Origin: an uncultured Oscillospiraceae bacterium
GTDB taxonomy: Bacteria > Bacillota > Clostridia > Oscillospirales > Oscillospiraceae
Reading direction: 5' to 3'
DNA length: 43,080 nt
Assembly (NCBI GenBank): GCA_947629795.1
Contig: CANRFC010000024.1
Location: 1-43,080 of the forward strand
Shown: positions 1-30,218 of the stretch, piece by piece
Numbering within the stretch: the stretch's first letter is position 1
Layout: each line of letters opens with the position of its first letter
Position numbers and translations under genes: made by a program
The notes under the pieces: model-generated
Databases searched by the model: none
The model's input: the letters and a program-made list of their open reading frames with translations, nothing else
What the model was told of the DNA's origin: nothing

Positions 1-458
1 CAGCGCAACTGTTCCTTGATGCGATTGAAATGCCAGTGTAGGCCCTTGCCCATCTGACTGGCCCCGTTGTCATAGATCATGCCGGGGGTGTACAGAGGGA
101 CGAGGACCTCTTTGCAAAGAGTCTTGTGGACTTGCCTGTCCGTGACGTGCGGGGCATCTATGGGGCGTATTTTTCCGCGCTCCCTGAGCATGAAGTGTAC
201 GCTTTTCTTTGGTCTCCAGGTCTTATTTAAGACCTTTCGCCGCCGCGCCGCCGTTCCTGAGAACAGATGAAGCCGGAAGTTCTGGACGGACTGCTTCCAG
301 TTTACACCGTTCCCACATCGCCATCCGTGGCGGAACATCTTGCGGAAAGAAAAAACGTCCTCAAGAGGACCCAGGGCATCGCATCGTGCCTGCTTCCTCT
401 CTTGACGTCTTTTCCTTCTTCGCTGATACCTTACCTCACGGCGTTCCTGACTGGTCAT
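1..458 (-). CDS. DGR reverse transcriptase, N-terminal part (cut by window edge)
   Basis: First 152 codons of a reverse transcriptase of the diversity-generating retroelement class; the gene continues past the left edge, so the catalytic YxDD palm is not visible. Read from the ATG at 458, the protein begins MTSQERREVRYQ, passes through a very basic stretch, then shows the blocks LEDVFSF, WKQSVQNF, GKIRPIDAPHV and, close to the edge, MIYDNGASQMGKGLHWH. The last matches the conserved IYDNGAS-GKG block that precedes the core of DGR enzymes. AAAGG lies about ten bases before the start. It follows the accessory gene and template repeat, the usual DGR order. The known role is to copy template-repeat RNA into cDNA with errors at adenines. 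The family is clear; whether the enzyme is intact cannot be judged here. Confidence 0.93.
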   Translation of the reverse strand, partial: MTSQERREVRYQRRRKRRQERKQARCDALGPLEDVFSFRKMFRHGWRCGNGVNWKQSVQNFRLHLFSGTAARRRKVLNKTWRPKKSVHFMLRERGKIRPIDAPHVTDRQVHKTLCKEVLVPLYTPGMIYDNGASQMGKGLHWHFNRIKEQLR

Positions 459-741
459 AAAGAGTTTTCGCCTTTCGTACAGATAAGTTGTAGGGTGTCC
501 TCTAATCTGCTTTGCCCCGGCACATGAAATGTGGGTAGACACATAGCCACACCATGCAAGAAGCGTCCGTGTAGGGGCATCAAAAGAAAGAGTATCGGCC
601 TATTTTGGAAATAGGGATATACTCTTTTCTGCTCTCCCAAGCAGAGCAGTTTTTGGGCTGACGCCCAGGGAAGTACCTCTCCTTTTACGAAGGTCGTCTT
701 TCGCTTTCGCTACTCCATTTGACCCCGTATCATCGTAAAAT
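459..741 (-). other. Spacer between template repeat and reverse transcriptase
   Basis: About 280 bases separate the template repeat from the reverse transcriptase start. Short open frames cross it, but none has a convincing ribosome binding site or family resemblance. In the well studied Bordetella phage DGR, RNA downstream of the template repeat is needed for priming and cDNA synthesis, so this stretch is probably part of the functional template RNA. That role is inferred by analogy only. Confidence 0.5.
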
Positions 742-876
742 CCGGCCACCAACGCCCACGAATTGTTTGCGTTGTTATTGTTGCGGGAGCCGTCCGTATT
801 GGTTTCGGTGAAGTTATTGTTGTTGTTGTAATTGGCCGAGCGCCCCCACCACACCACAGCGGACGACACGTTATCA
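742..876 (-). repeat. DGR template repeat (TR)
   Basis: 135-base near-copy of the 3' end of the tail-fibre gene (1588-1722), aligned without gaps at a constant offset of 846. The two copies differ at 14 positions. On the minus (coding) strand every difference is an A in this copy replaced in the gene: 5 A to T, 5 A to C and 4 A to G. The copy is rich in AAC and AAT codons where the gene has varied residues, which is the design that lets adenine mutagenesis reach many amino acids without making stop codons. It lies between the accessory gene and the reverse transcriptase. It is a non-coding RNA template; the open frame through it is incidental. Confidence 0.97.
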
Positions 877-896
877 GAGGCACACCTAATAGACCG

Positions 897-1358
897 TCAG
901 GGTTTCTTCTGGCCCAGCTTTTTGATTTGACCCTTCAAGAGTTCGTTCTCTTGGTCGATCATCTCGCCAAGACTCTGAGCCATCCTATCCAGCTTTTCTT
1001 CGGCATCCCTGGCCTTTACCTGGGCCCCTTTTGCGGTAGTGAAGCAGCCTTCCGGGTTCTGGTTCATCACCAGATAACAGTGCGTGAGCCGAACATCAAG
1101 AGCCATCAGCGACGCCCTGGCCTCCAGCAGATGCTTCATCCGAAGCTCTACCCTCTGTACATCAGAAGGGAAGATGCTATTCGCTTTCTCTGCGTTGTCA
1201 AGGACCTCTCCGGCCAGCTTCGCCACCGGCTCTGCCAGTAAACGGGAATACCGGGCCGACATTCTGGTCAAAAAGTTCAGCGTCTCGACGTAGATTTGAT
1301 TTGACGTGTTCACAAACTCCGCCTTGCTGACGGACCGTTTCTGCTTCAATACCGACAT
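897..1358 (-). CDS. avd: DGR accessory protein, Avd-like
   Basis: 153-aa helical protein starting at the ATG at 1358, preceded by AGAGGT at a six-base spacing; an earlier in-frame start at 1400 lacks such a site. It is mostly amphipathic helix (for example TLNFLTRMSARYSRLL, then HLLEARASLMALDVRL). This fits the four-helix-bundle Avd family, which is related to 23S rRNA intervening-sequence proteins, though it is somewhat longer than the roughly 128-aa Bordetella Avd. Known Avd forms a basic barrel-like pentamer that binds the reverse transcriptase and template RNA and is needed for mutagenic retrohoming. Its place between the target gene and the template repeat supports this call. The C-terminus is lysine-rich, consistent with RNA binding. 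Confidence 0.85.
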   Translation of the reverse strand: MSVLKQKRSVSKAEFVNTSNQIYVETLNFLTRMSARYSRLLAEPVAKLAGEVLDNAEKANSIFPSDVQRVELRMKHLLEARASLMALDVRLTHCYLVMNQNPEGCFTTAKGAQVKARDAEEKLDRMAQSLGEMIDQENELLKGQIKKLGQKKP

Positions 1359-1424
1359 GGTTCTACCTCTTTCGGAGCTGGATTGAAGATAGTATAACAC
1401 AAATGGTCATCTTGTCAAAGAGAC

Positions 1425-1461
1425 AAAAAATAAAAATTTGCGTCGGGCGCTTACGCGCCCG
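1425..1461 (-). terminator. Intrinsic terminator after the tail-fibre gene
   Basis: On the minus strand a 7-bp GC stem (arms 1455-1461 and 1444-1450) with a GTAA loop is followed within a few bases by AAATTTTTATTTTTT. This is a good rho-independent terminator ending the long late operon before the accessory gene. No separate promoter for the DGR genes was recognised, so they may depend on read-through. Confidence 0.7.
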
Positions 1462-1469
1462 AATAGTGT

Positions 1470-1489
1470 CCCGGCCCGTGAGGGCCGGG
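1470..1489. other. Stem-loop in the fibre-avd gap
   Basis: Perfect 8-bp GC stem (1470-1477 and 1482-1489) with a four-base GTGA/TCAC loop, between the terminator hairpin and the DGR hairpin. There is no T-tract, so it is not a terminator. It may be a secondary cruciform of the DGR or part of the mRNA 3' structure. Confidence 0.6.
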
Positions 1490-1526
1490 AGGTGCTGCCC
1501 TTCGGCTTGCCGTCCGGTCCGGGGGA

Positions 1527-1546
1527 CCGCCCCCTTCCGGGGGCGG
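1527..1546 (-). promoter_or_regulatory. DGR target-site hairpin/cruciform downstream of VR
   Basis: Perfect 8-bp GC stem (1527-1534 and 1539-1546) whose coding-strand loop is GGAA. DGR targets commonly carry a hairpin of 7-10 bp with a GRNA tetraloop just downstream of the variable repeat, where it stimulates retrohoming. Here it begins about 41 bases after the repeat and 28 bases after the stop codon. The match in stem length, loop sequence and position is good; the function is inferred from the Bordetella phage system. Confidence 0.8.
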
Positions 1547-1574
1547 GATTTGGTCGTGATAGCTCTGCGGAGGA

Positions 1575-4313
1575 TTAGGTTGTAAAGCCGGCCACCAACG
1601 CCCACGAATTGTTAGCGTGGTTAGCGCGGCGGGAGCCGTCCGTATAGGTATCGGCGAAGTTAAGGTTGGTGTTGTAATAGGCCGAGCGCCCCCACCACAC
1701 CACAGCGGACGACACGCTATCATGCCGGTAGGCAATCTTCTTGTTTCCCGCTATGAAGTAGGCATACTGCTTCTGCTGATTCTGCTCATACTGGTTTGCG
1801 TACTGCCGTTCGCCGTGAATCTCGAACTCAGACAAGAGGAACAGGTAATCGACGGAGACAGTAACATTCTCAGCCGAGTTACTACTGTTGCCCTTGTTGT
1901 CCGTGTATTTCGTGACCGTCTTCATCACTCTGCGAAGGTCCTGCGGCAGAGCGGCCATCAGCGTATTGGGGACCGGGTTTGTTGCGATGTCATAATTGTC
2001 GGGGTCATAGCCAACCCGATTCGTCTTCGGAGAGCTTCCGTAATCGCTGGGAGCTTTGTTGGTGCTGCCCAGAATATCGTAACGGAGGTCACAGCCTTGC
2101 CAGCCACCGTAGTTGTAGTTACCCCAGTGGTTCATGTTAAAGTATTTGTCGCCGTTCGTATAGTAGTTGTTGTAGCCCTTGTCACACAGGCCGACCATTG
2201 AACCGTTGATTTTGCCGATGGCCCAATGGATACGGTGGGTTCCTTCCTTTTCCGCATTGTGGTCAATGCCGAGCACAAAGACGTCGATTGCCTGACTTTT
2301 CAGCTCCAGCGTCCCCACAGTGCCGTTGAGGATGATGCTCTTGGTGTCGCCGATCTCAAAGAAGCTGGCGGCGGTCCCGGCATCGGAAATCGCCTTGATG
2401 TCATCCCAAGACGACTTCGCCACCGACGGCTTCTCTACGGTCACGTCGAGGACCGCGCTGGCCGCATTGAACTTGACCGTCTGAGGAACGGAGATGGTGA
2501 TTTTGGCACCGCCCTCCGTCGCGCCGGAAATCGTGACGATGTTTCCGGCGGCAGATGCGGTTGCAATACCGGGCTGATTGGAAATCGCAGAGACTTGGCC
2601 GTCGCTGTCCGTGGTGACGGTGATTTTCTTGCTACTACCGATCATCACAGTCTGAGCCGTGGAGGGGTCAATGCTGAAGGTCGGGGTCTTCCGGGCTACG
2701 CTCACACGGAGGACCTTGCTGGCATCTTCATAGTTCTGGCTCCCCTTGCTATGAACGGTGATATCTGCTTCGCCCTGCCCAGCGCCGGTGACCGTCACCT
2801 TCTTCTGAGCCGAATCGACAGAAATCGTGGCATAGGTCTGATTGCTGGTCTCAGCGGTGATGGTGGCATCGCTGTTGGTGGTCGCCTGAATCTCCACCTT
2901 GTCTCCGACCTTGATGCTCTGGCCCAGGCTGGGCTCGATGTTCAAGGTGTTCGCGGCCTTAGCGATGCTCCACTGGACGGACTTGGCGCCCGTCTCGCCT
3001 CCCGGCCACTGGTAGTTCGCCTTCGGCGTGAAAGAGGTGGAGTAGGTGCCGGCGTTGGTCTGCTGAGTCTCATCCTTGGTGAGCTGGTCCTCGTTGAAGT
3101 CCTTCCAGGTAGGAGTCTGAGGGCTGGTGTTGTAGGTGAGGCTATCGGTCTGGCTGGGCACCGTGGCGATGGTGGCCCTTCCGATGGTCCACTCGACCTC
3201 TTTCTCCTCCTTGGATTTGTCGCCCCAGGTATAGTCGCCCTTGGGAGTGAAGTACGCCTTGTAGGTGCCAGCATTGGTCTCACCGGCGAAATCCTCCTCA
3301 GAAGTCTTGTCCTGCCCGTACTTAACTTCCATCATCTCTTTGCTGAAGTTGTTCCAGACGGGTTTCTGGGCGCTCTTGTTGTAGGTGAGGCTTCCTGCCT
3401 GAGAAGGAATCACGGAGATGGTGTTCTGGACAGCAGCGATTGCCGCCGCCGCGCCGTCAGCCACAGCCTTCGCAGATGCCGCCAAGGTCTGAGCATCTTC
3501 CAGGGCCTTCCGCATGGATTTCTCCTCGGTGAACTTCTCCCAGGTGTAGACCTCCTCGGCATCGTTCACGCAGACGAACTCATTCCCGGTGTCCAGATTG
3601 ATGTAGTGCTGACCGATTTTGCCTACCGTCTCCACGGTGGGGTCGCCGTGGCCGGTCAAGGTCTCGCTTCCGTTGATGGAGACCTCAATACCGCGAATGC
3701 GGGCTCTCAGCGGCGGGTGCGCTTCCGTGTCCGCATTGTGAGCTGCGATTGCCTCGGGGTGGGCCTCCGGGTCATTGTTGTGCTCATCTAGGTCATCAAA
3801 CCGGACCATGGCGGCGGTGTTGATGACGGCGGTGACACTGGACGCACCGGCGACAATGGTCTGGATCTCGAAGGTGACGAAAGAGTTCACCGCGCTGCCT
3901 TGGGCTCGGATGAATACCGGGTGCTCATGGCAGTCCAGGTAGGCGTAGGCGGTCTTGAGCTGGGTATCGGGGTCTTCCACATAGAGCATGACGCCCTTGC
4001 AGAGAAAACCGACCTCGATGCCGATGCTGGTCGCCTGCACGACTACGGTCGCCTCACCTCTTCCGGTGTTCTTGACGCTGGCGATCTTGCCTTCCCCGGC
4101 GAACTGGATCGGCGCGGTCAGCTCCTCCACGGAAGTTCCCTCCGGCAGGTCGCCGCTGTCCAGCTCCGCAGCGGTATACTTGATACCGCCCTTCTGAGCC
4201 AGGACACGGCCCAACACATCATATCCGGAGAGAAGAAGGACAGCCCCGTCCGTGCCGGCGGGTTCGTCCATCTCCATAGCGATGCGCTGCATTTCGTCTC
4301 TGGAAACAGGCAT
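1575..4313 (-). CDS. Tail fibre/receptor-binding protein, DGR-diversified
   Basis: 912-aa protein, last gene of the tail module; the start at 4313 follows GGAGGTAAAGAATT. The N-terminal 290 or so residues look like a fibre base joined to the baseplate, including a His-rich segment (DEHNNDPEAHPEAI) near residue 180. Two repeats of about 75-85 residues follow (about 300-383 and 384-454, each with SLTYN and TNAGTY...FTPK). Then come two Ig-like (Big-2 type) domains (about 455-542 and 543-627). The last 280 residues match the DUF6273-like/C-type-lectin style of clostridial DGR targets, with WWGRSA, TDGSR and NNSWALVAGF. The protein probably sits at the tail tip and contacts the host surface, with the variable C-terminus choosing the receptor. 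The template-variable repeat relation is seen directly; receptor binding is inferred. Confidence 0.9.
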   Translation of the reverse strand: MPVSRDEMQRIAMEMDEPAGTDGAVLLLSGYDVLGRVLAQKGGIKYTAAELDSGDLPEGTSVEELTAPIQFAGEGKIASVKNTGRGEATVVVQATSIGIEVGFLCKGVMLYVEDPDTQLKTAYAYLDCHEHPVFIRAQGSAVNSFVTFEIQTIVAGASSVTAVINTAAMVRFDDLDEHNNDPEAHPEAIAAHNADTEAHPPLRARIRGIEVSINGSETLTGHGDPTVETVGKIGQHYINLDTGNEFVCVNDAEEVYTWEKFTEEKSMRKALEDAQTLAASAKAVADGAAAAIAAVQNTISVIPSQAGSLTYNKSAQKPVWNNFSKEMMEVKYGQDKTSEEDFAGETNAGTYKAYFTPKGDYTWGDKSKEEKEVEWTIGRATIATVPSQTDSLTYNTSPQTPTWKDFNEDQLTKDETQQTNAGTYSTSFTPKANYQWPGGETGAKSVQWSIAKAANTLNIEPSLGQSIKVGDKVEIQATTNSDATITAETSNQTYATISVDSAQKKVTVTGAGQGEADITVHSKGSQNYEDASKVLRVSVARKTPTFSIDPSTAQTVMIGSSKKITVTTDSDGQVSAISNQPGIATASAAGNIVTISGATEGGAKITISVPQTVKFNAASAVLDVTVEKPSVAKSSWDDIKAISDAGTAASFFEIGDTKSIILNGTVGTLELKSQAIDVFVLGIDHNAEKEGTHRIHWAIGKINGSMVGLCDKGYNNYYTNGDKYFNMNHWGNYNYGGWQGCDLRYDILGSTNKAPSDYGSSPKTNRVGYDPDNYDIATNPVPNTLMAALPQDLRRVMKTVTKYTDNKGNSSNSAENVTVSVDYLFLLSEFEIHGERQYANQYEQNQQKQYAYFIAGNKKIAYRHDSVSSAVVWWGRSAYYNTNLNFADTYTDGSRRANHANNSWALVAGFTT
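1588..1722 (-). repeat. DGR variable repeat (VR)
   Basis: Last 135 bases but ten of the tail-fibre coding sequence, homologous to the template repeat at 742-876. It covers roughly residues 864-909. The adenine-derived changes alter ten residues (about 866, 879, 882, 884, 887, 888, 890, 896, 897 and 899) and one silently. The unchanged end, coding NNSWALVAGF, is the expected initiation-of-homology region. The block fits the ligand-binding face of the C-type-lectin-like fold used by DGR targets. Confidence 0.96.
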
Positions 4314-4319
4314 AATTCT

Positions 4320-5264
4320 TTACCTCCTTATGTTTGCTTTGACGGTAATATCCTCCCATACGGTAGAGCCGGCGGCCGGGGAGATTGCGGCCATGCGTTT
4401 CTCTTGCTTCGGCGGCATACCGGCGATGATGGTGATTTCCTCCCACACTGTGGAGCCGGTCACCATGGAGATGCCGCCGCTGCGGTTCTCCGGCTTCAAC
4501 GGTATATCGGCATTGACCTCGGTGAACTCCCATGCGACGGTGACAGCGGAGAGCTTCACAGAGTCGCGGACGGTCACGTCCCTGGTCATCAAATCGCCCT
4601 TGATCGTGATGTCCTCGAAGGCGGTGGAGACCATATCCAGCTCCATCCTGGAAGTCCTTCCGGGGTCTGGCCGGAGGTCAGCCTCGATGTTGCGGCCCTC
4701 TATGGCGGCCATGCCGATGTAAAGGTCCTCACGAGCCGTGCGCTTGGTGCGGAGGAATATCCTCATACCAACGCCGGCGGCGATGATCCGCTTCATCAGC
4801 TCCGCTATCAGCTCTATTGACTCCATACGCTCGTTGTCGAGCATACTTTCCTCAATGAACATCCAGACTTTCGCAGGGAATATCTCCTGGAGCTCGATGT
4901 CGGAAATCTCCACGTTGAACAGACTGGCCGCGGCCTGAGTGACCGTATCAATATCTCCGCCGGACAGCAGGGCAATCATCTTCACCTTTATGACGAGACG
5001 GTAGAAGGTGTCGTTCGCCCCTCCGCGCCGGACTCCGAAGTTTGCCCCGTACCGGTCCAGGACCGCGCCTTTGGCGTTGTCCAGGTTGTCCCACTGTTTG
5101 ACGAGCTCGGCCTGTTCCTGCGCCATATCCAGGCCCCAGGCGAGGACAGAGAACAGCTTTCCGATGTTCGTCTCGATTGGGAGGAGCAGGCTGCGGCTGT
5201 CGTGGTCCTCATGGGTGTAGGCGCTGGTGAGCAGCTTCATCATTTCGTGGAGATGGTTTCTCAC
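4320..5264 (-). CDS. Baseplate/tail protein of the Mu gp48 / tail protein I group
   Basis: 314-aa protein directly after baseplate J; its ATG overlaps the J stop codon (ATGA at 5261-5264), so the two are translationally coupled. The N-terminus (LLTSAYTHEDHDSRSLLLPIETNIGKLFSVLAWGLDM) and the following segment KGAVLDRYGANFGVRRG are typical of the YmfQ/gp48-like proteins that follow gpJ/gp47 homologues in contractile tails and link the wedge to fibres. The C-terminal part has three short repeats with the pattern TVxWE(D/E/F)(I/T) (about residues 240-312), perhaps an adaptor for the fibre encoded next. Family assignment comes from order and N-terminal motifs; the C-terminal repeats are specific to this phage group. 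Confidence 0.75.
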   Translation of the reverse strand: MRNHLHEMMKLLTSAYTHEDHDSRSLLLPIETNIGKLFSVLAWGLDMAQEQAELVKQWDNLDNAKGAVLDRYGANFGVRRGGANDTFYRLVIKVKMIALLSGGDIDTVTQAAASLFNVEISDIELQEIFPAKVWMFIEESMLDNERMESIELIAELMKRIIAAGVGMRIFLRTKRTAREDLYIGMAAIEGRNIEADLRPDPGRTSRMELDMVSTAFEDITIKGDLMTRDVTVRDSVKLSAVTVAWEFTEVNADIPLKPENRSGGISMVTGSTVWEEITIIAGMPPKQEKRMAAISPAAGSTVWEDITVKANIRR

Positions 5265-6439
5265 GACACATCCACCTTGCTTTCCTCGGTGACGGCCTTC
5301 TCCCGGGTGGCGACCTCGACGTTATCCCACCCGTAGTTCTCACCGTCCGGGCTGATCTTCAGCTTGAAGTCCACGACGCCGGAGACGCTGAGAACGGGAG
5401 GGTACAGGGCTACCCGGATGACGTCCTGCCCGATGCCGAGTCCTCCGCGGACGCTGCCGCCGATGAACGAGACGACCTTCTCCTTTATCTGCTCGATGCC
5501 GTCCAGGGGGAAGTCGTCATTGGTCACAAGGTTCGTGATCTGCACCCATACGTTGACGGGAGCCGGCCGGCTGAACTTGATCTCATACATCTGCCCGGAC
5601 TGGCTGAGGACCGAGGATGAGGTGTTGCCGAAAGTCTGGATGCCGGCAGCCTTCCGGCGGAAGATGGCCTTGGCGATGTCATCATCCAGCCCGCCGTATG
5701 CGACGATCTCGATGGAGTGAGGGGGGAGCCCCCGCTCGTTCTGTTCGTCCGTGTCGTTCTCATCCCCGGCCACGGACAGGATGCCCTCCACGCTCTCGTA
5801 TATCTCCGCTACGATGGCGTCAATATTGACGCCGCCGGCGAAGTCCACGGAGAGGTAGTACCGTTCCCGGAACTCGGCAGGCGTCTCCGTGTTGCGGCCG
5901 CCCTCGAACGGGCGGGCATTCGTGACGGTCTTGACCCCCAGCTTGGGGTTGGTGATGTTTTTGACGGTCTCCTCCGCCGTGTTGCCGTCCGGCCCGGAGG
6001 ATACGGCCGACGCAGGCAGGGTAACGGAGCCGTCCGTGATGACGCCGGACTGGAGCGTGATATACTGCTCGCCGGCCATAGTCTCGGCCAGGAACCCCTC
6101 CGGCACATCCACGCCGTCGTCGCCGGTGAACGTCAGGTATCCGACGGCCCTCTGGGCCCCCAGGAGCCGCAGGCCGATGGCCCGGCCCAGGTTGTACAGG
6201 CTGTAACCGACCGCGGTGTCAACGAATCGGCTGTTGTAGACATCCTCCAGGGTACTGAACAGCAGATTCAGCATCCAGGCGAATATCCGCAGGAAGATTC
6301 CGAGGGGTGAGCGGACCGTCAGGTTGGCGTCGCGCCCGAAAAGCTCCCTGGCCTTTTGCTCTAGTGCATCCAGCAGCTCGGCATACGTCGGGCGTCTGAA
6401 GCCGGCGTCGGTCAGGCCCCAGTCAGTTTGCTTTGCCAC
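5261..6439 (-). CDS. Baseplate J / gp47-like wedge protein
   Basis: 392-aa baseplate J protein, a structural homologue of the core of T4 gp6, which forms the baseplate wedge ring. Typical segments are FRRPTYAELLDALEQKARELFG at the N-terminus, SPLGIFLRIFAWMLN, VPEGFLA, the central PAEFRERYY and the C-terminal domain with GGLGIGQDVIRVALYPP. Initiation is at GTG (6439), whose G is also the last base of the upstream TAG, with GGAGGTGACAGCGTA before it. It lies between the gp25-like wedge gene and the gp48-like gene, the standard order. Confidence 0.93.
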   Translation of the reverse strand: MAKQTDWGLTDAGFRRPTYAELLDALEQKARELFGRDANLTVRSPLGIFLRIFAWMLNLLFSTLEDVYNSRFVDTAVGYSLYNLGRAIGLRLLGAQRAVGYLTFTGDDGVDVPEGFLAETMAGEQYITLQSGVITDGSVTLPASAVSSGPDGNTAEETVKNITNPKLGVKTVTNARPFEGGRNTETPAEFRERYYLSVDFAGGVNIDAIVAEIYESVEGILSVAGDENDTDEQNERGLPPHSIEIVAYGGLDDDIAKAIFRRKAAGIQTFGNTSSSVLSQSGQMYEIKFSRPAPVNVWVQITNLVTNDDFPLDGIEQIKEKVVSFIGGSVRGGLGIGQDVIRVALYPPVLSVSGVVDFKLKISPDGENYGWDNVEVATREKAVTEESKVDVS

Positions 6440-6810
6440 TACGCTGTCACCTCCAGTCTGATCTTCTCACCGCTGGTCGTGGTCGCCACAATATCAACGG
6501 TGATATTCCGGTCCTTGATTTCAGTCGTTATCGAGTCAACGCTTGAGATGTCCGGCTCCTGGAACACCGCCTCGCGTATGACCTCCTCGACTTCCCCACG
6601 CTCCAGCTCGTTCTCGTTCACTCCCATGATGCGCTCGTAGTCAGTGCCGTGGGTCGTGTCGGCGAAGAACTCCGCCTTCCATGTCAGGAGGGCGTGGCGA
6701 ACATTCTGGACCGTGGTATCGGCGCCGTAGATTTTTTTGAGGAATCCGTTCTCATCGAACACAAGGTCCCTCGTGTCTGGGTCTATCAGCAGGGTCATGT
6801 TTTCTTCCAT
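6439..6810 (-). CDS. gp25/XkdS-like baseplate wedge protein (DUF2634)
   Basis: 123-aa protein with an ATG at 6810 preceded by GGAGGT; an upstream extension is open but has no binding site. The central text YGADTTVQNVRHALLTWKAEFFAD and the C-terminal IREAVFQEPDISSVDSI match DUF2634/gp25-like wedge proteins, which sit next to baseplate J and connect the wedge to sheath and tube. The lysozyme-like label attached to this family reflects fold similarity, not enzymatic activity. Confidence 0.85.
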   Translation of the reverse strand: MEENMTLLIDPDTRDLVFDENGFLKKIYGADTTVQNVRHALLTWKAEFFADTTHGTDYERIMGVNENELERGEVEEVIREAVFQEPDISSVDSITTEIKDRNITVDIVATTTSGEKIRLEVTA

Positions 6811-9949: not shown

Positions 9950-12900
9950 TTAAAATGCGTACTGCTCTTTCAGAGCCGTGTGCTCAAGCTCCTCGTTGCG
10001 GAACTCCTCATACAGCTCACGGACGGCGTTCATCATCTCTTCCCGGAGCTGCGCGATCTTGTCATCATCCACATCGCCGTTGACGTTGATCGTGATGGTC
10101 GGCGAGAACGCGGGGACCGGGGCGCTGCCTCTGGGTGCTGGCGCGTCGGACGTGCCACCGCCTCTGTCGGTTTCTCCGACAACACCGGATACTGCGGAGC
10201 TGCTGGTGAGGTCCGGCGGCTCGAAGTCCTCAACTGCCGGGTGTACACCGTAGAGAACATCATCCACAGACATGGGGCCGATGCTATCCACGACCGGGTG
10301 GATGCCGAAGGACACGTCGGAGACTTCCGGGGCGTCCACAACATCAACTACGGGGTGGATGCCGAAGGTAACATCAGAGACTTCCGGCATATCCGGGATG
10401 CCCATGACTGGGGTGATGTTGTAGTCGGCAGGACCAGGAAGGTCGTAAGGCGGAGAGTAGCCGCTCCACGACACGGTGGGACCATCAGGGTCTGGAACAT
10501 CCGGATCTGGGACATCGGGGTCTGGAACATCCGGATCTGGGACATCGGGGTCTGGAACATCCGGATCTGGGACATCGGGGTCTGGGACATCAGGCTCCGG
10601 GACCTCCAGGTCGGTCGGCAGGGCGCCTTCGATGTCCTTGGTCACGGAGGCCATCGTATCAGCGAAGCCCTTGCCGATGCCGAGGGCCATGTTGTCGCCG
10701 ATCTCAGCAAACACGGTAGACGGGCTGTGGATGCCAAGGAAGCCCTTGATGCCGTCCACGATGCCGCCGGCGAACTCTTTGACCTTCTCGCCTATCCAGC
10801 TTGCCATGGAGGAGATGCCGTTCCACAGGCCCTCCACGATGTTCTTGCCTACATCCAGGACCAATCCGGGAATCTGGGCTAGGGCGCCTAGGATGGCGGT
10901 GCCGATTGCCGGGAGCTGGGCGACCAGTTCCGGGATGGTGGAGATGATGCCGTTGCCGAGCTCCTGGAGGATCAAGACGCCGGACGAGACGATGGATGGG
11001 AAGTTCTCCGCCAGGGTCCCGACGATTCCGGTGATGATGGCGGGCACCTGGGCTATCAGCTCAGGCAGAGCTCCGATAAGCCCGGTAGCCAGAGACGTGA
11101 GGATCTGGATGCCCTGCTCCGCCACGGTGGGAAGGTTCTCGGTGACGAACCCGCAGATAGACGTGATGATCTGCGGCAGCATCTCGACCAGAAGCGGGAT
11201 GGCCCCCATCAATCCCTCGCCTATAGACGTGAGGATGGTTGACCCCTGCTCCAGCAGCGTGGGCATACTCTCGGACAGGAACCCAACGATCTGGTCGATG
11301 AGCACAGGCAGTTGCTCTATCAGGACCGGGATAGCCCCGATGACACCTTCGGCCAGTCCGCTGATGAGCTGCATCCCGGCATCAATGAGCAGGGGTGCGT
11401 TTTCGATCAGAGCGCCAGCGATGAGCGTTACCGTTTCGACGATGGTCGGTATCAGCTCCGGCAGCATCCCGCTGACACCGGATGCCAACGAGGCCACGAT
11501 CTCCACGGCGGCCCCGGCCAGAACCGGCAGGCTTCCGAGGATACCGTCGCCCAGGATGGTGACTATCTGTATCGCGGTGTCGATCAGAGCCGGAGCATTG
11601 TCGAGCAGTCCTTGGCCCAGTGCGCCGAGCAACTGCATACCGGCGTCAACCACCGTGGGCAGCATTTCGGCGACCATGCCGAGGCCATCACTGATAATAC
11701 CTCCCAGTGCTCCCATCGCACCGGTGAATCCACCCTCCTGAAAAGCCCCTGAGAGTGTGGAGATTGCGTTAGTACCGAACTGAGTGAACTCCCTTAATGT
11801 TGGTGTTAGCTCATCGGAGATCGCAATTTTAGCGCCTTCTAGGGCGCTTTGGAAAAGGGTGATGTCACCGGCCAGATTGTCGAGCTGGGTGTCCGCCATG
11901 GCCTGGGCCGCGCCGGTGGTGTTGTCGAAGGCGGTTTGCAGGTTGCCGAGGTCACCGCCGAGAGCACTGATGACATCTTCCTGGGTGACTCCGGCATCGG
12001 CTGCCTCCAACAGAGCATCGGCAAATGCTTCAGCGTCACCGCCGCTGGAGGACAGGATGCTGGAGAAGGTGTCCTGGCTGATGCCGAGCTTTCCAAGGTT
12101 CGACTCCATTGTGGAGAGGTCGAGCCCGACATCGGTCAGCGAATCGGACAGGCTGCCCATGTTGACCCACGCACCGTCGATGGCCGAGCCAAGCTCTTCC
12201 CACCGCTCTGCGCTCGTGTCGAGCAGGGCGTTAACGGATTTCAGGTCGGCCTTGTTGAACAGCTCGCTCAACAGGTTCGTCCGTTCGCTCTGGGTCATGT
12301 CAGCCATGGCCGCGTTCAGATCCCCGAATGTCTCATTCAGCGGACGCATATTGCCCTCAGCGTCATAGACCTCTACGCCGAGGGACTTCAGGGCGGCGGC
12401 AGCCTTATCGGTCGGTGCTCCGAGGGATAGGATGATGTTACGGAGAGCGGTTCCGCCCTCCGCACCCTTGGTGCCGTTGTCAGCGAGGATGCCGAGTGCC
12501 GTACTCAGCTCGGTGGTTCCTCCGGCGAGGTTCTTTGCAGTACCGCCGACGGTGAGGATGGCGCTGCCGAGCTGTGCGACGCTTGTGTTGGACTGGCTGG
12601 ACGCCCGGGCCATCTTGTCAACGAGTTCGCTGGTCTCGTCAATCGAGAGGCCGAGGGCGCTCTGTGCATCCGTTATCATATCGGATGCACTCGCAAGCTC
12701 AATCCCACCGGCGGCCGCTAGGTTGAGCACGTTGGGCAGCATCGACATGGAGGTCTCCGCGTCGTAGCCAGCCAACGCCATGTAGTTCAAGGCGTCTGCC
12801 GACTGCTTGGCGGAGAAGGCGGTGCTCTCGCCCATCTCCATGGCAAACTCACGCAACTGGGTGAAGGTTTGGTTTGCTTCGGAGCCTGCGGTGTTGATGT

Positions 12901-27321: not shown

Positions 27322-28524
27322 TTACCAATACTCGCCGAACATCGTCTCCATCGAGTCCCGATTCTTCACGAGGAAGAATCCTGCGCCCGGCTCGTACACC
27401 ATCATAGAGGGTGTGCCTCTGATGAACCTGGGGGACAGGACGTTCGAGTAGGCCCCGACGTTATCGAAAAGGACCTGATCGCCGACACTGAGCGGACCAG
27501 TGTACCCGTCCACCAGCCGGTCGGACTCCAGGCATGTGCAACCACACAGGGAGGCGTCCGCTACGCGGCCGCCTCCGTGGTTGATGACGTAGTACGGGAA
27601 CGTCTTCGTCGATTCTCCGATGACGGTGATGTCCAGCTTCTTGGCGTCGAGTGTGCATACCGTCTTTCCGCAGACGGTTTTGATGTCCACCACGGTGGTG
27701 AGCAAAGACTGAGCGTTGGAGATGAGGGTGGTCCCGGGCTCCACGATGATCGCGGGCATATCTGCGTCGCTGTAATAATCGGACAGGGCGTCGTAGATGC
27801 AGTCCGCGTAATCCTGGAACGTCGGTATCTCGCAATCGAACTGGGCGGCCAGCTCCGGGTTCATGGGCCCGTACATCCTTCCGCCGAGGTCGATGATGCC
27901 GGCGCCGAGCATCTTGGCGATCCGGGCCATTCTGTGCGTCTTCTCCGCCCAGGTGTCCAGTGACCGGCTGAACGCTACATGACAGTGTACGGATGACACC
28001 AAGATGTTGTCCAGCTCTTTGATGGCGGAGACGGTATCGGGGTTGATCTCGATACCGAACCTGGAGCGGTCCATACCGGTCATGGGAAGATTGACCCGGA
28101 TGCCGATGTTGCCGACCGTGTGCAATTCTCCGAGGCGGGAGTTGATGAGGCGGAGCTCGGTCATGTTTTCCACGTTCACGATACCGCCGTTCAGGGCGAC
28201 CTGGACCTTCCCGTTTACATCCTGGATGACGCCGTTGTAGATGATGTTGCTGTCGTGGACGAACTTCCTGGCGTAGGCCAGCTCCATGGGGGAGACGACC
28301 TCCGCATAAGCCCCCTTCCGGTGGACCATGCGGACGACGGCACTGGCGTAGTTGGTTTTGTAGGAGTATCCGACGATGAATCTGCGGAAGCGAGAGCGGA
28401 GGGCTTCTTGCAAGCTGGCGATGTTCTCCTCCAGGATGGGCTTGCTGACGATATAGGTCGGTGTGGGGAGGGAGCTACCTCTTAACACCGATTCTTGCAA
28501 CATTTTTTCGATAGTCATACTCAT
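27322..28524 (-). CDS. PLP-dependent amino-acid decarboxylase (fold type III, LysA-like)
   Basis: 400-aa enzyme of the diaminopimelate/ornithine decarboxylase superfamily (alanine-racemase fold). The PLP lysine is K56 (YSYKTNY, compared with YAVKAN in LysA); later landmarks are HCHVAFS (180-186), the glycine loop LGGRMYGP (213-220), EPGTTL (262-267), the catalytic CLESD (331-335, compared with CESxD) and GAYS (357-360). All catalytic landmarks are present, so activity is likely. Substrate cannot be read from sequence; such enzymes act on diaminopimelate, ornithine, arginine or lysine derivatives. It is the last gene of the cassette with ATP-grasp and glycosyltransferase genes and overlaps the latter by 50 bases. 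Confidence 0.88.
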   Translation of the reverse strand: MSMTIEKMLQESVLRGSSLPTPTYIVSKPILEENIASLQEALRSRFRRFIVGYSYKTNYASAVVRMVHRKGAYAEVVSPMELAYARKFVHDSNIIYNGVIQDVNGKVQVALNGGIVNVENMTELRLINSRLGELHTVGNIGIRVNLPMTGMDRSRFGIEINPDTVSAIKELDNILVSSVHCHVAFSRSLDTWAEKTHRMARIAKMLGAGIIDLGGRMYGPMNPELAAQFDCEIPTFQDYADCIYDALSDYYSDADMPAIIVEPGTTLISNAQSLLTTVVDIKTVCGKTVCTLDAKKLDITVIGESTKTFPYYVINHGGGRVADASLCGCTCLESDRLVDGYTGPLSVGDQVLFDNVGAYSNVLSPRFIRGTPSMMVYEPGAGFFLVKNRDSMETMFGEYW

Positions 28525-29218
28525 AATACACTCCCCATTTATTGTGCATGGCGATGGTCATGTCGATGTGGGCTTTTCTGGCGTCCCTCGTTCCGGCATT
28601 GGTATCCATGAGGGCCGTGGTGCAGTAATACTTCGGCAGCAGGATGATACGGTTCAGGAGAAGTTCCTGCATAGCCATGTCGATGTCACTGGTGGCCGGG
28701 TCATCCTCGTTCAGCTTGGCCTTGAATCCAGACTTGTTCACCCAGCGGATATGACCGGGCATACCCTTGAAGCCGAACTCCCGGTCATAGATGTAGGATG
28801 CGTAGTTGGGGTTGTCGAAGGCCAGCCCGAGGCCCAGGTCGGAGAGAAGCTGGCCGATGCGTTCACACTCCATGGTGGCCGTCTCTACATCCGGGTTCCC
28901 GTCGCTGTCCACGATGGGATACCGCTTATCATTCCGGTAGCACATGAACTTAACGTCGTCGTCCACGATGCAGATGACGTCCTCCGGGGTGTTCTCAATG
29001 ATCCAGTAGAAGGTGGTCATAAAGTTGTGGACGGCGCCGGCGGGGATGATGAGCATATCGTCTATGCCAGCCTCCCGGTATTTCTCAGCCTGTTCCTCCC
29101 TGACAACATAGGTGCAGTATTCAAACAGGTTCTTGGTCATAATGGCATCCCAGCGGCTCATCGACATACAGTAGATGTTGAAGTTCTCCGGCCGATCAGT
29201 GGTAGTAGTGGGCGTCAT
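28475..29218 (-). CDS. TET-associated-type glycosyltransferase (GT-A)
   Basis: 247-aa enzyme with the features of the glycosyltransferase family first noted beside TET/JBP DNA oxygenases in phages: NIYCMSMSRWDAI, YVVREEQAEKYREAGIDDMLIIPAGAVHNF, and the metal-binding DDD motif in VICIVDDDVKF (about residue 85), then YDREFGFKGMPGHIRWVNKSGF and SDIDMAMQELLLNRI. GT-A enzymes transfer a sugar from a nucleotide-sugar donor. Family relatives are linked to decoration of hydroxylated bases, but no TET/JBP gene is in this window. It overlaps the ATP-grasp gene by 23 bases, pointing to co-expression. Confidence 0.82.
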   Translation of the reverse strand: MTPTTTTDRPENFNIYCMSMSRWDAIMTKNLFEYCTYVVREEQAEKYREAGIDDMLIIPAGAVHNFMTTFYWIIENTPEDVICIVDDDVKFMCYRNDKRYPIVDSDGNPDVETATMECERIGQLLSDLGLGLAFDNPNYASYIYDREFGFKGMPGHIRWVNKSGFKAKLNEDDPATSDIDMAMQELLLNRIILLPKYYCTTALMDTNAGTRDARKAHIDMTIAMHNKWGVYYEYDYRKNVARIGVKR

Positions 29219-30218
29219 AGTATTTCACCATCTTCAGTCCGTAGTCGAAGGAGATGTTGGTGTCGATGGGCTCTCCCAGGAGCTGCTTGCAGCGGAGGTA
29301 CACCAGATTCGCTCCGGCCTTGTCGATGAAGGGGATGGAGGCGTTGATGCGGGGGTTGCACTCCAGCAGGAACGGGTGACCGTCCGGGCGGACGATGAAG
29401 TCGAAGCAGGCGTTCCCGTCCAGCTCAAGGACGTTGACGACCTCCTCGGCCATGAAGTAGGCCGGCTCGTTCTTCAGGATCTCCCCCTGGGTGACGGCGC
29501 CGTACTCCATGGCGTATCCGGCAAAGCCACACATGAGCTCTACCTTTCCGTGGTCCGCCAGGACGCAGACGCTATAATCGGTCCCGGGGATGTACTCCTG
29601 GAGGATGATCTCCACATCAACCTTGTCGGCGATCTCGCAGAGCTGGTCGATGCTGATGTACCGGTTGACGCCCAGCCTGTTGAAGAGGGAGATTTCCAGG
29701 TACTTCTTCTCATCCAGGACTGCAAAGCCGGTCCCACCACACTTGTCCGCCAGCTTGCAGCACAGCGGGGTGCCGGTGTAATAGCCGATGCTGCGGGCGA
29801 ACTCCCTGATCTGATCGGATGACCGGACTACCGTCTGCCTGGGCATATAGCCGCGGAACATGTGAGCCATCTCCACCTTGTCATTTGCGACCATGAGGGT
29901 GCGCTCGGAGGCCACGGAGACCTTGGTCCCGTTGGACTCCAGCCGCTCGCGGTTGGCGGCGATGATGGGCAGCTCGGCCGTGATGTACGGGAGGATGACA
30001 TCGACCTTCTCCTCGGTGCAGAGGTCCAGGAGCCAGTCGATATAGGATGGGTCGAAGCTGGACGGGGCGATGATGGCCTTGTCCACGTCGGACCGCAGGA
30101 TGTTGGAGGGGTTGTTATTGATGCCGATGACCTGGACCTCTCTGCCGTCGATGTTGTTCTTCAGGGACTGGACGAGGTTCTTGCTGTGTCGGCTACAGCC
30201 GGTAATCAAAACTTTCAT
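29196..30218 (-). CDS. ATP-grasp ligase (CarB/PylC-like)
   Basis: 340-aa ATP-grasp enzyme. Residues 1-110 form a Rossmann-like pre-ATP-grasp domain (MKVLITGCSRHSKNLVQSL, VQVIGINNNPSNIL). The ATP-grasp core has NDKVEMAHMF, the glycine loop CKLADKCGGTGF, LQEYIPGTDYSV and the metal-binding FDFIVRPDGHPFLLECNPRIN (E-x-N-P-R). Members use ATP to activate a carboxylate and join it to an amine or other nucleophile. In this cassette it could link an amino acid to another amino acid, a sugar or a base. GGAG precedes the ATG at 30218. The substrate is unknown. Confidence 0.87.
   Translation of the reverse strand: MKVLITGCSRHSKNLVQSLKNNIDGREVQVIGINNNPSNILRSDVDKAIIAPSSFDPSYIDWLLDLCTEEKVDVILPYITAELPIIAANRERLESNGTKVSVASERTLMVANDKVEMAHMFRGYMPRQTVVRSSDQIREFARSIGYYTGTPLCCKLADKCGGTGFAVLDEKKYLEISLFNRLGVNRYISIDQLCEIADKVDVEIILQEYIPGTDYSVCVLADHGKVELMCGFAGYAMEYGAVTQGEILKNEPAYFMAEEVVNVLELDGNACFDFIVRPDGHPFLLECNPRINASIPFIDKAGANLVYLRCKQLLGEPIDTNISFDYGLKMVKYYDAHYYH

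Follow-up and report, generated by a model that had tools for sequence, protein, structure and literature searches.

In the diversity-generating retroelement (DGR) of the Bordetella phage BPP-1, the spacer RNA has been described to fold, to recruit the complex of reverse transcriptase (RT) and Avd, and to contain the adenine used for priming (PMC12875486), while the structure of a stem-loop that follows the variable repeat (VR) is reported to be important for homing. Stem-loops of this kind in phage DGRs have GC-rich stems of 7-10 bp and GRNA loops, and lie 4-34 bp from the VR (PMC3240598). Closer to the element studied here are the DGRs of the Faecalibacterium phages Taranis, Pioen and Roos. 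In the part of Cornuault et al. 2018 that deals with accessory genes, Avd homologues are given for Mushu and Lagaffe only, and another small protein is proposed for the remaining phages (PMC5883640); the section of a later study that covers read variation reports it in the VR of Roos and Pioen only, among the DGR phages of that study (PMC11792537). Here we describe a DGR in the genome of an uncultured Oscillospiraceae bacterium. The window that we analysed is the entire contig C24 (CANRFC010000024.1; 43,080 bases), the left end of which falls inside the RT gene.

It is very probable that the element is a complete phage DGR, in which complementary DNA (cDNA) from the template repeat (TR) rewrites the VR of a tail-fibre-like gene. 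When TR and VR were aligned on the minus (coding) strand, they matched without gaps over 135 columns with 14 mismatches, every one of which (14/14) falls at a TR adenine, with 5 changes to T, 5 to C and 4 to G. This reproduces the count given in the original prediction, which was made from the sequence alone. Adenines make up 37 of the 135 TR bases, which yields a hypergeometric P of 1.6e-9 for 14/14, and none of the 98 TR columns that hold another base differs; a gapless match at 121 of 135 positions is itself beyond chance expectation for 43 kb. By codon position, the TR adenines are distributed as 17 at position 1, 18 at position 2 and 2 at position 3. Because both position-3 adenines are altered in the VR, and one of these changes (GCA to GCT) is silent, protein-level selection does not explain every change. 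The adenine pattern, the RT palm on a second contig, the spacer RNA, the stem-loop, the gene order and the class of the target were all observed directly, and the pattern together with RT pieces on contigs C24 and C40, the second with YMDD, bears out the identification of the element as a DGR. Its features are as follows.

742..876, minus strand: template repeat (TR); homology reaches on to 738
1588..1722, minus strand: variable repeat (VR), lying in the target gene at its 3' end; homology reaches on to 1584
1..458, minus strand: N-terminal piece of the reverse transcriptase (RT), starting with an ATG at 458 and open as far as the end of the contig; PHROG 1423
450..727, minus strand: RT-2 structured RNA (Rfam RF03077) in the TR-RT spacer; 146 bits, gathering score 40
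897..1358, minus strand: accessory gene, 153 aa, PHROG 30516, putative divergent Avd (PHROG search, with intermediates to PHROG 3206)
1575..4313, minus strand: target gene, 912 aa, with a tail-fibre-like N-terminus, a weak Ig-like match and a DUF6273 C-terminus holding the VR
1527..1546, minus strand: DNA stem-loop after the VR, CCGCCCCC(GGAA)GGGGGCGG, with an 8 bp stem and a GRNA loop
741, minus strand: adenine at the TR 3' edge, C in the VR (1587), read from a comparison of TR/VR pairs as the discriminator between the two initiation of mutagenic homing sites (IMH* in the TR, IMH in the VR)

The accessory gene and the start of the RT, which is open from its ATG to base 1, stand in the order that had been expected. 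A match to PHROG 1423 (reverse transcriptase; E 1.2e-25) covers positions 3-542, and what is probably the remainder of the gene lies at the end of contig C40 of the same genome (L002 780-1589, minus strand; RVT_1, 9.1e-8; PHROG 1423, 1.2e-40). This remainder contains YMDD, the form taken here by the YxDD palm that the original prediction had proposed as a check. Bases 1-89 of the window overlap the last 89 bases of C40 (22852-22940) inside the RT, with one mismatch (window 72), perhaps because the sample contained two variants. When the two pieces were searched separately against the RT frame of L028, the nearest relative by accessory protein (83%), the N-terminal piece (152 aa) matched residues 34-185 at 80% and the C-terminal piece residues 158-425 at 73%; against the RT frame of L010 the pieces cover residues 1-151 and 124-392. 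Jointly they span the RTs of relatives, and it is on these RTs and the 89-base overlap that we base the probable adjacency of C24 and C40. For the C-terminal piece, the comparison with L028 gave a non-synonymous rate (dN) of 0.20 and a synonymous rate (dS) of 0.89.

To place the element among its relatives, we compared 35 sequences: the window, 28 loci from a scan with the accessory protein (23 in viral_contigs and 5 in genome_contigs) and six of the seven phage records returned by a DNA search, two of which represent one phage, Taranis. By pattern, 32 of the 35 oriented sequences have an RT frame with YMDD or FMDD; the others are the window, which is cut, L012 and L027. Pooled over 29 sequences, which include several near-duplicate contigs, 463 of 471 TR/VR differences lie at a TR adenine; not pooled were L006, L009, L016 and L038, which yielded no pair, L027, which yielded none that is credible, and L008 (7/18 differences at adenine). 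Within groups whose TRs are identical or almost so, the columns at which VRs vary lie at TR adenines in 15/15, 22/25, 1/1, 20/20 and 11/12 cases; Pioen (L034) has the same TR as the last of these groups but was omitted, its repeat having been scanned in two pieces. L008 was considered as a decayed control and rejected, as its Avd frame is open: the stop codon in the aligned stretch precedes the Avd ATG. At 6512-6640 of this record (IMGVR_UViG_3300035326_000430), 13 of 21 differences from the L031 TR are at L031-TR adenines, and the L008 TR itself seems to be adenine-mutated, as if rewritten; the same DGR-bearing phage contig has a twister-sister ribozyme match at 11880-11959 (minus strand). 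In L031, TR and VR lose register near the 3' end (~5449-5580), which suggests a small indel within the VR.

The homology between TR and VR in the window is four bases longer than the 135 columns, and this extension includes a fifteenth adenine mismatch, at 741/1587. We surveyed the edge in 50 TR/VR pairs, 30 from the window, its relatives and the phage records and 20 from genomes. A TR adenine stands opposite a VR cytosine in 45 of the 50 under one placement of the edge (L031, L058, L061, L070 and L071 unscored) and in 46 of the 50, with 41 distinct A/C pairs, under a second, in which L037 and L059 were unplaced, one pair was C/G (L061, by elimination) and L071, which is of another class, was set aside. 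In the printed alignment, L037 and L059 do have A/C at the edge, and the exception, L061, is without an A there. Of 1245 ordinary TR adenines in 40 distinct pairs, 592 are changed, just 139 of them to C; this count omits L008, L031, L058, L061 and L071, as well as duplicates and the final 8 columns. Since the VR has a near-constant C opposite the adenine at the TR 3' edge, 741/1587 is not a product of hypermutation, and 14/14 without it is the correct count; A mismatches at this edge, if all are counted, can inflate hypermutation by one. By its position, 741/1587 would correspond to the IMH*/IMH boundary of BPP-1, and the near-constant C suggests that the 3' edge of the VR is retained while the sequence upstream is replaced.

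From just past the TR to the start of the RT, the window matches the RT-2 RNA family over its full length, with an insert of about 60 nt in one stem, and this is the only RT-2 match in the source genome. The RNA is present in 12/12 relatives examined. Across 400 genomes of the host family we found 25 matches over the cut-off, in 22 genomes, against 0/14 control genomes. Twenty-three of these 25, the window's own included, were studied as loci, and in 20 of the 23 the RNA directly follows, on its 5' side, a TR/VR pair in which 60% or more of the differences fall at TR adenines (lowest 14/17); the remaining three, L055, L057 and L062, are cut by contig ends that lie 306, 621 and 521 bases upstream of the RNA. 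TR and RT-2 are separated by 4-39 bases in the 18 loci listed, which do not include L052 and L053, and by 10-14 bases in the window. Among the seven matches below the cut-off (L063-L069), five have an RT frame and none has a TR/VR pair, which counts against a wider claim. As the RNA occupies the position of the BPP-1 spacer RNA, its likely role, by analogy, is that of a TR spacer RNA. RF03077 appears in a table of improved structures in the Rfam 15 paper, in the part of it that names the family; our literature search returned no paper that pairs 'RT-2 RNA' with 'diversity-generating retroelement', and the original description of the RT motif may state the link. The tie to DGRs gives a likely function to a family that Rfam lists by name only. 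Pairing between the TR 3' end and the spacer RNA was also tried, by comparing own and other duplex energies at 27 loci, and was unsupported: for four segments, the fraction of permutations at or below the observed value was 0.99, 0.55, 0.09 and 0.37.

The proposal that a tail fibre is the target agrees with the N-terminus of the target protein, which matches PHROG 7037 (tail fibre protein) at residues 22-185 (3.7e-30). Its C-terminus matches Pfam DUF6273 (2.8e-7), with the VR at the end of the domain; the Ig-like match, to Big_2, is under the Pfam cut-off, and the best PHROG match overall is PHROG 37900, of unknown function (residues 552-911). The VR homology stops 2 codons ahead of the stop in the 912 aa frame. 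A search by sequence of the target domain against solved structures returned zero matches. The stem-loop begins 38 nt past the end of the VR homology. Hairpins with a GRNA loop and a stem of at least 7 bp occur within 150 nt of the VR in 16/35 distinct loci, where shuffles give 0.01 expected, and hairpins with any loop of 3-8 nt occur within 120 nt in 23/36 loci vs 1.34 expected; both counts omit L031 and L071, and short or repeated stretches were dropped. A second GC-rich hairpin, TCCCGGCCC(TCAC)GGGCCGGGA, lies between the VR and the accessory gene (window 1441-1526).

By analogy with BPP-1 and the Faecalibacterium phages, from which priming, complex formation, the role in binding and current activity are carried over, the spacer of an avd-TR-RT transcript would fold as the RT-2 RNA and bind the RT-Avd complex. 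The cDNA would start at the TR 3' end (IMH*), with random bases placed opposite adenines, and would take the place of the VR in the 3'-terminal part of the tail-fibre-like gene; the VR's A-free 3' end (IMH) and the GRNA stem-loop 38 nt beyond it would guide this step. The outcome would be varied residues in the DUF6273 domain and, presumably, changed binding of the phage.

One component of this scheme, the accessory protein, could instead be a small protein unrelated to Avd, which would still be compatible with a DGR. Its sole PHROG match at E ≤0.001 is PHROG 30516, 'unknown function' (1.7e-84); it has no NCBIfam match; solved structures searched by sequence with an Avd alignment gave four matches at E 0.11 or worse; and in hhalign the window family alone reached a probability of 2.6% against a set of Avd proteins and 0.3% against the Avd of a second DGR in the genome (see below). 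We nevertheless consider an unrelated protein unlikely, given what lies between the two families. A profile of the window's accessory family detects those of L057-L061 at E 1.1e-4 or better and that of L064 marginally (0.0035), E-values that refer to a small set of frames. The L061 protein matches, over overlapping residues, both PHROG 30516 (1.5e-11) and PHROG 3206, 'Avd protein of DGR' (1.4e-10); the L059 protein likewise matches both (4.7e-7 and 8e-6), that of L057 matches PHROG 30516 only, and weakly (0.0056), and L061 and L064 match the NCBIfam Avd model, both below its cut-off. In hhalign, the intermediates align with the window family at 99.7% and with the Avd set at 98.2%, and the window family plus intermediates reach the Avd set at 96.0%, whereas 20 shuffles of the Avd set's columns gave a maximum of 1.82% (the comparison of intermediates with the window family was run without a shuffle). 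The Avd set holds six proteins: L074, L076, L077, L078 and L081, drawn from 16 matches to the Avd model, with L074 alone over the model's cut-off, and L064, included for its PHROG 3206 match (4.2e-41). The accessory gene is constrained (dN 0.10 and dS 1.29 vs L028; dS vs L005 was not computable). Judged from these sequence comparisons, then, the accessory protein is a putative divergent Avd, recognised through intermediates where direct comparison is negative. Taranis-type DGRs seem to have an Avd after all, too diverged for a direct match, a point left open in 2018.

Other observations, besides the negative direct matches of the accessory protein, weigh against a complete DGR that rewrites its VR. 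The RT lies in two pieces on different contigs, and the 89-base overlap between these has a mismatch; the stem-loop lies just beyond the published distance range, and GRNA hairpins, at 16/35 loci, are not universal. The TR has no match in the other 15 genomes of the genus, one 27-base stretch of it has no exact match in viral_contigs, and the nearest target domain there, in a search for strains of the same phage, is 65% identical. In the window/L028 pair, only 15 of 22 VR-variable columns are at adenine. The other seven fall in the first 14 columns, before the VR of L028 begins to match its TR; past column 14 the two TRs differ in 14 columns, and each VR equals its own TR in 12. This agreement is 11/11 in columns without A in either TR, and in the two remaining columns a window A became T where L028 has T in both TR and VR. 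Each VR mostly tracks its own TR, which suggests that the window VR was rewritten from the window TR after the split from L028. These data bear on the possibility that the element is an inactive relic, a cassette that formerly diversified the fibre and is now frozen. Such a reading would suit the division of the RT and the restriction of VR read variation to Roos and Pioen in the relevant section of PMC11792537. We do not favour it, and hold it to be very unlikely: the RT pieces, the accessory gene and the target are all open, the RT pieces and the accessory gene are constrained, and the 0/98 and 12/14 counts tell against it as well. Still further from the data is a plain gene duplication followed by A-biased mutation, without reverse transcription. 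It would fit the presence of two similar repeats ~0.85 kb apart, but its probability is negligible when all 14 changes are at A and go to all three other bases, when the repeats adjoin an RT, an RT-2 RNA, a stem-loop and an Avd-like gene, and when the same adenine pattern recurs in 29 sequences; the RT and the relatives already contradict it. The element's recent activity, as originally predicted, gains indirect support from the 0/98 and 12/14 counts, from relatives with the same TR, the VRs of which differ almost only at TR adenines, and from the read variation reported for Roos and Pioen; its present activity is something that we infer.

The phage that hosts this DGR has a contractile tail. 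The window encodes tail sheath, tape measure, tail terminator, baseplate, major head, portal and terminase proteins, along with RecT-like, exonuclease and helicase-loader genes, and a PHROG search of 20 window proteins left four without a match. Because the sequence sits in a bacterial assembly, the phage is presumably an integrated prophage. C40, which seems to continue it, contributes a CHAP endolysin, and carries UDP-galactopyranose mutase-like and radical SAM genes at 4360-6186 (L039). At 27322-30218 (minus strand) the window has a cassette with pyridoxal phosphate (PLP)-dependent decarboxylase-like and PylC-like ATP-grasp proteins, and a weak TET-associated glycosyltransferase match below the cut-off; it possibly serves DNA or sugar modification. 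The genome also holds a second, different DGR (G000:C2, within 169838-173476; L071; L089 10707 and 12776), with an Avd (PHROG 3206), a TR, an RT and a target with the VR inside the gene. Its TR/VR differences are at TR adenines in 11/11 cases over 95 bases (P 4.5e-9), and its target matches a Hoc-like head decoration protein and adjoins contractile-tail genes.

Taken together, it appears likely that these elements form a distinct DGR subclass with a co-inherited kit, comprising a PHROG 30516 Avd, an RT-2 spacer or priming RNA and a near-constant A/C discriminator between IMH* and IMH, whose members come mostly from gut Clostridia and their phages, judging by record titles. If so, an RT-2 match over the cut-off would offer an easy way to find such DGRs, and the RT-2 covariance structure would be a second case beside the BPP-1 spacer RNA. 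The window RNA is like the Rfam family in matching it at full length between TR and RT, and unlike it in the stem insert of ~60 nt, the family being listed only as 'RT-2 RNA'. With the BPP-1 prototype, the element shares the avd-TR-spacer-RT order described for it (PMC12875486), an IMH, A-specific differences and a stem-loop with an 8 bp stem and a GRNA loop, as published for BPP-1 (PMC3240598). It differs in its target, which is DUF6273 and not Mtd, in an accessory protein so divergent that it has no direct match to Avd, and in a stem-loop 38 nt from the VR, as opposed to the published 4-34 bp (PMC3240598). The likeness to the DGRs of Taranis, Pioen and Roos, as these are described in PMC5883640 and PMC11792537, is closer: gene order, a related RT and contractile-tail genes are shared, the accessory gene is related (74% over query residues 15-153), Taranis (L033) carries an RT-2 RNA, and Roos and Pioen are reported to have DUF6273 targets with C-terminal variable regions (PMC11792537). 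DNA identity to these phages is about 66% over 16-1359, and TR, phage and host differ. The Avd identity, the tie between RT-2 and DGRs and the A/C edge are what this analysis adds, although they may have been published before. The element itself is an ordinary DGR of the described Taranis/Pioen/Roos type, complete as far as two contigs show, and adds a well-formed member to that group.

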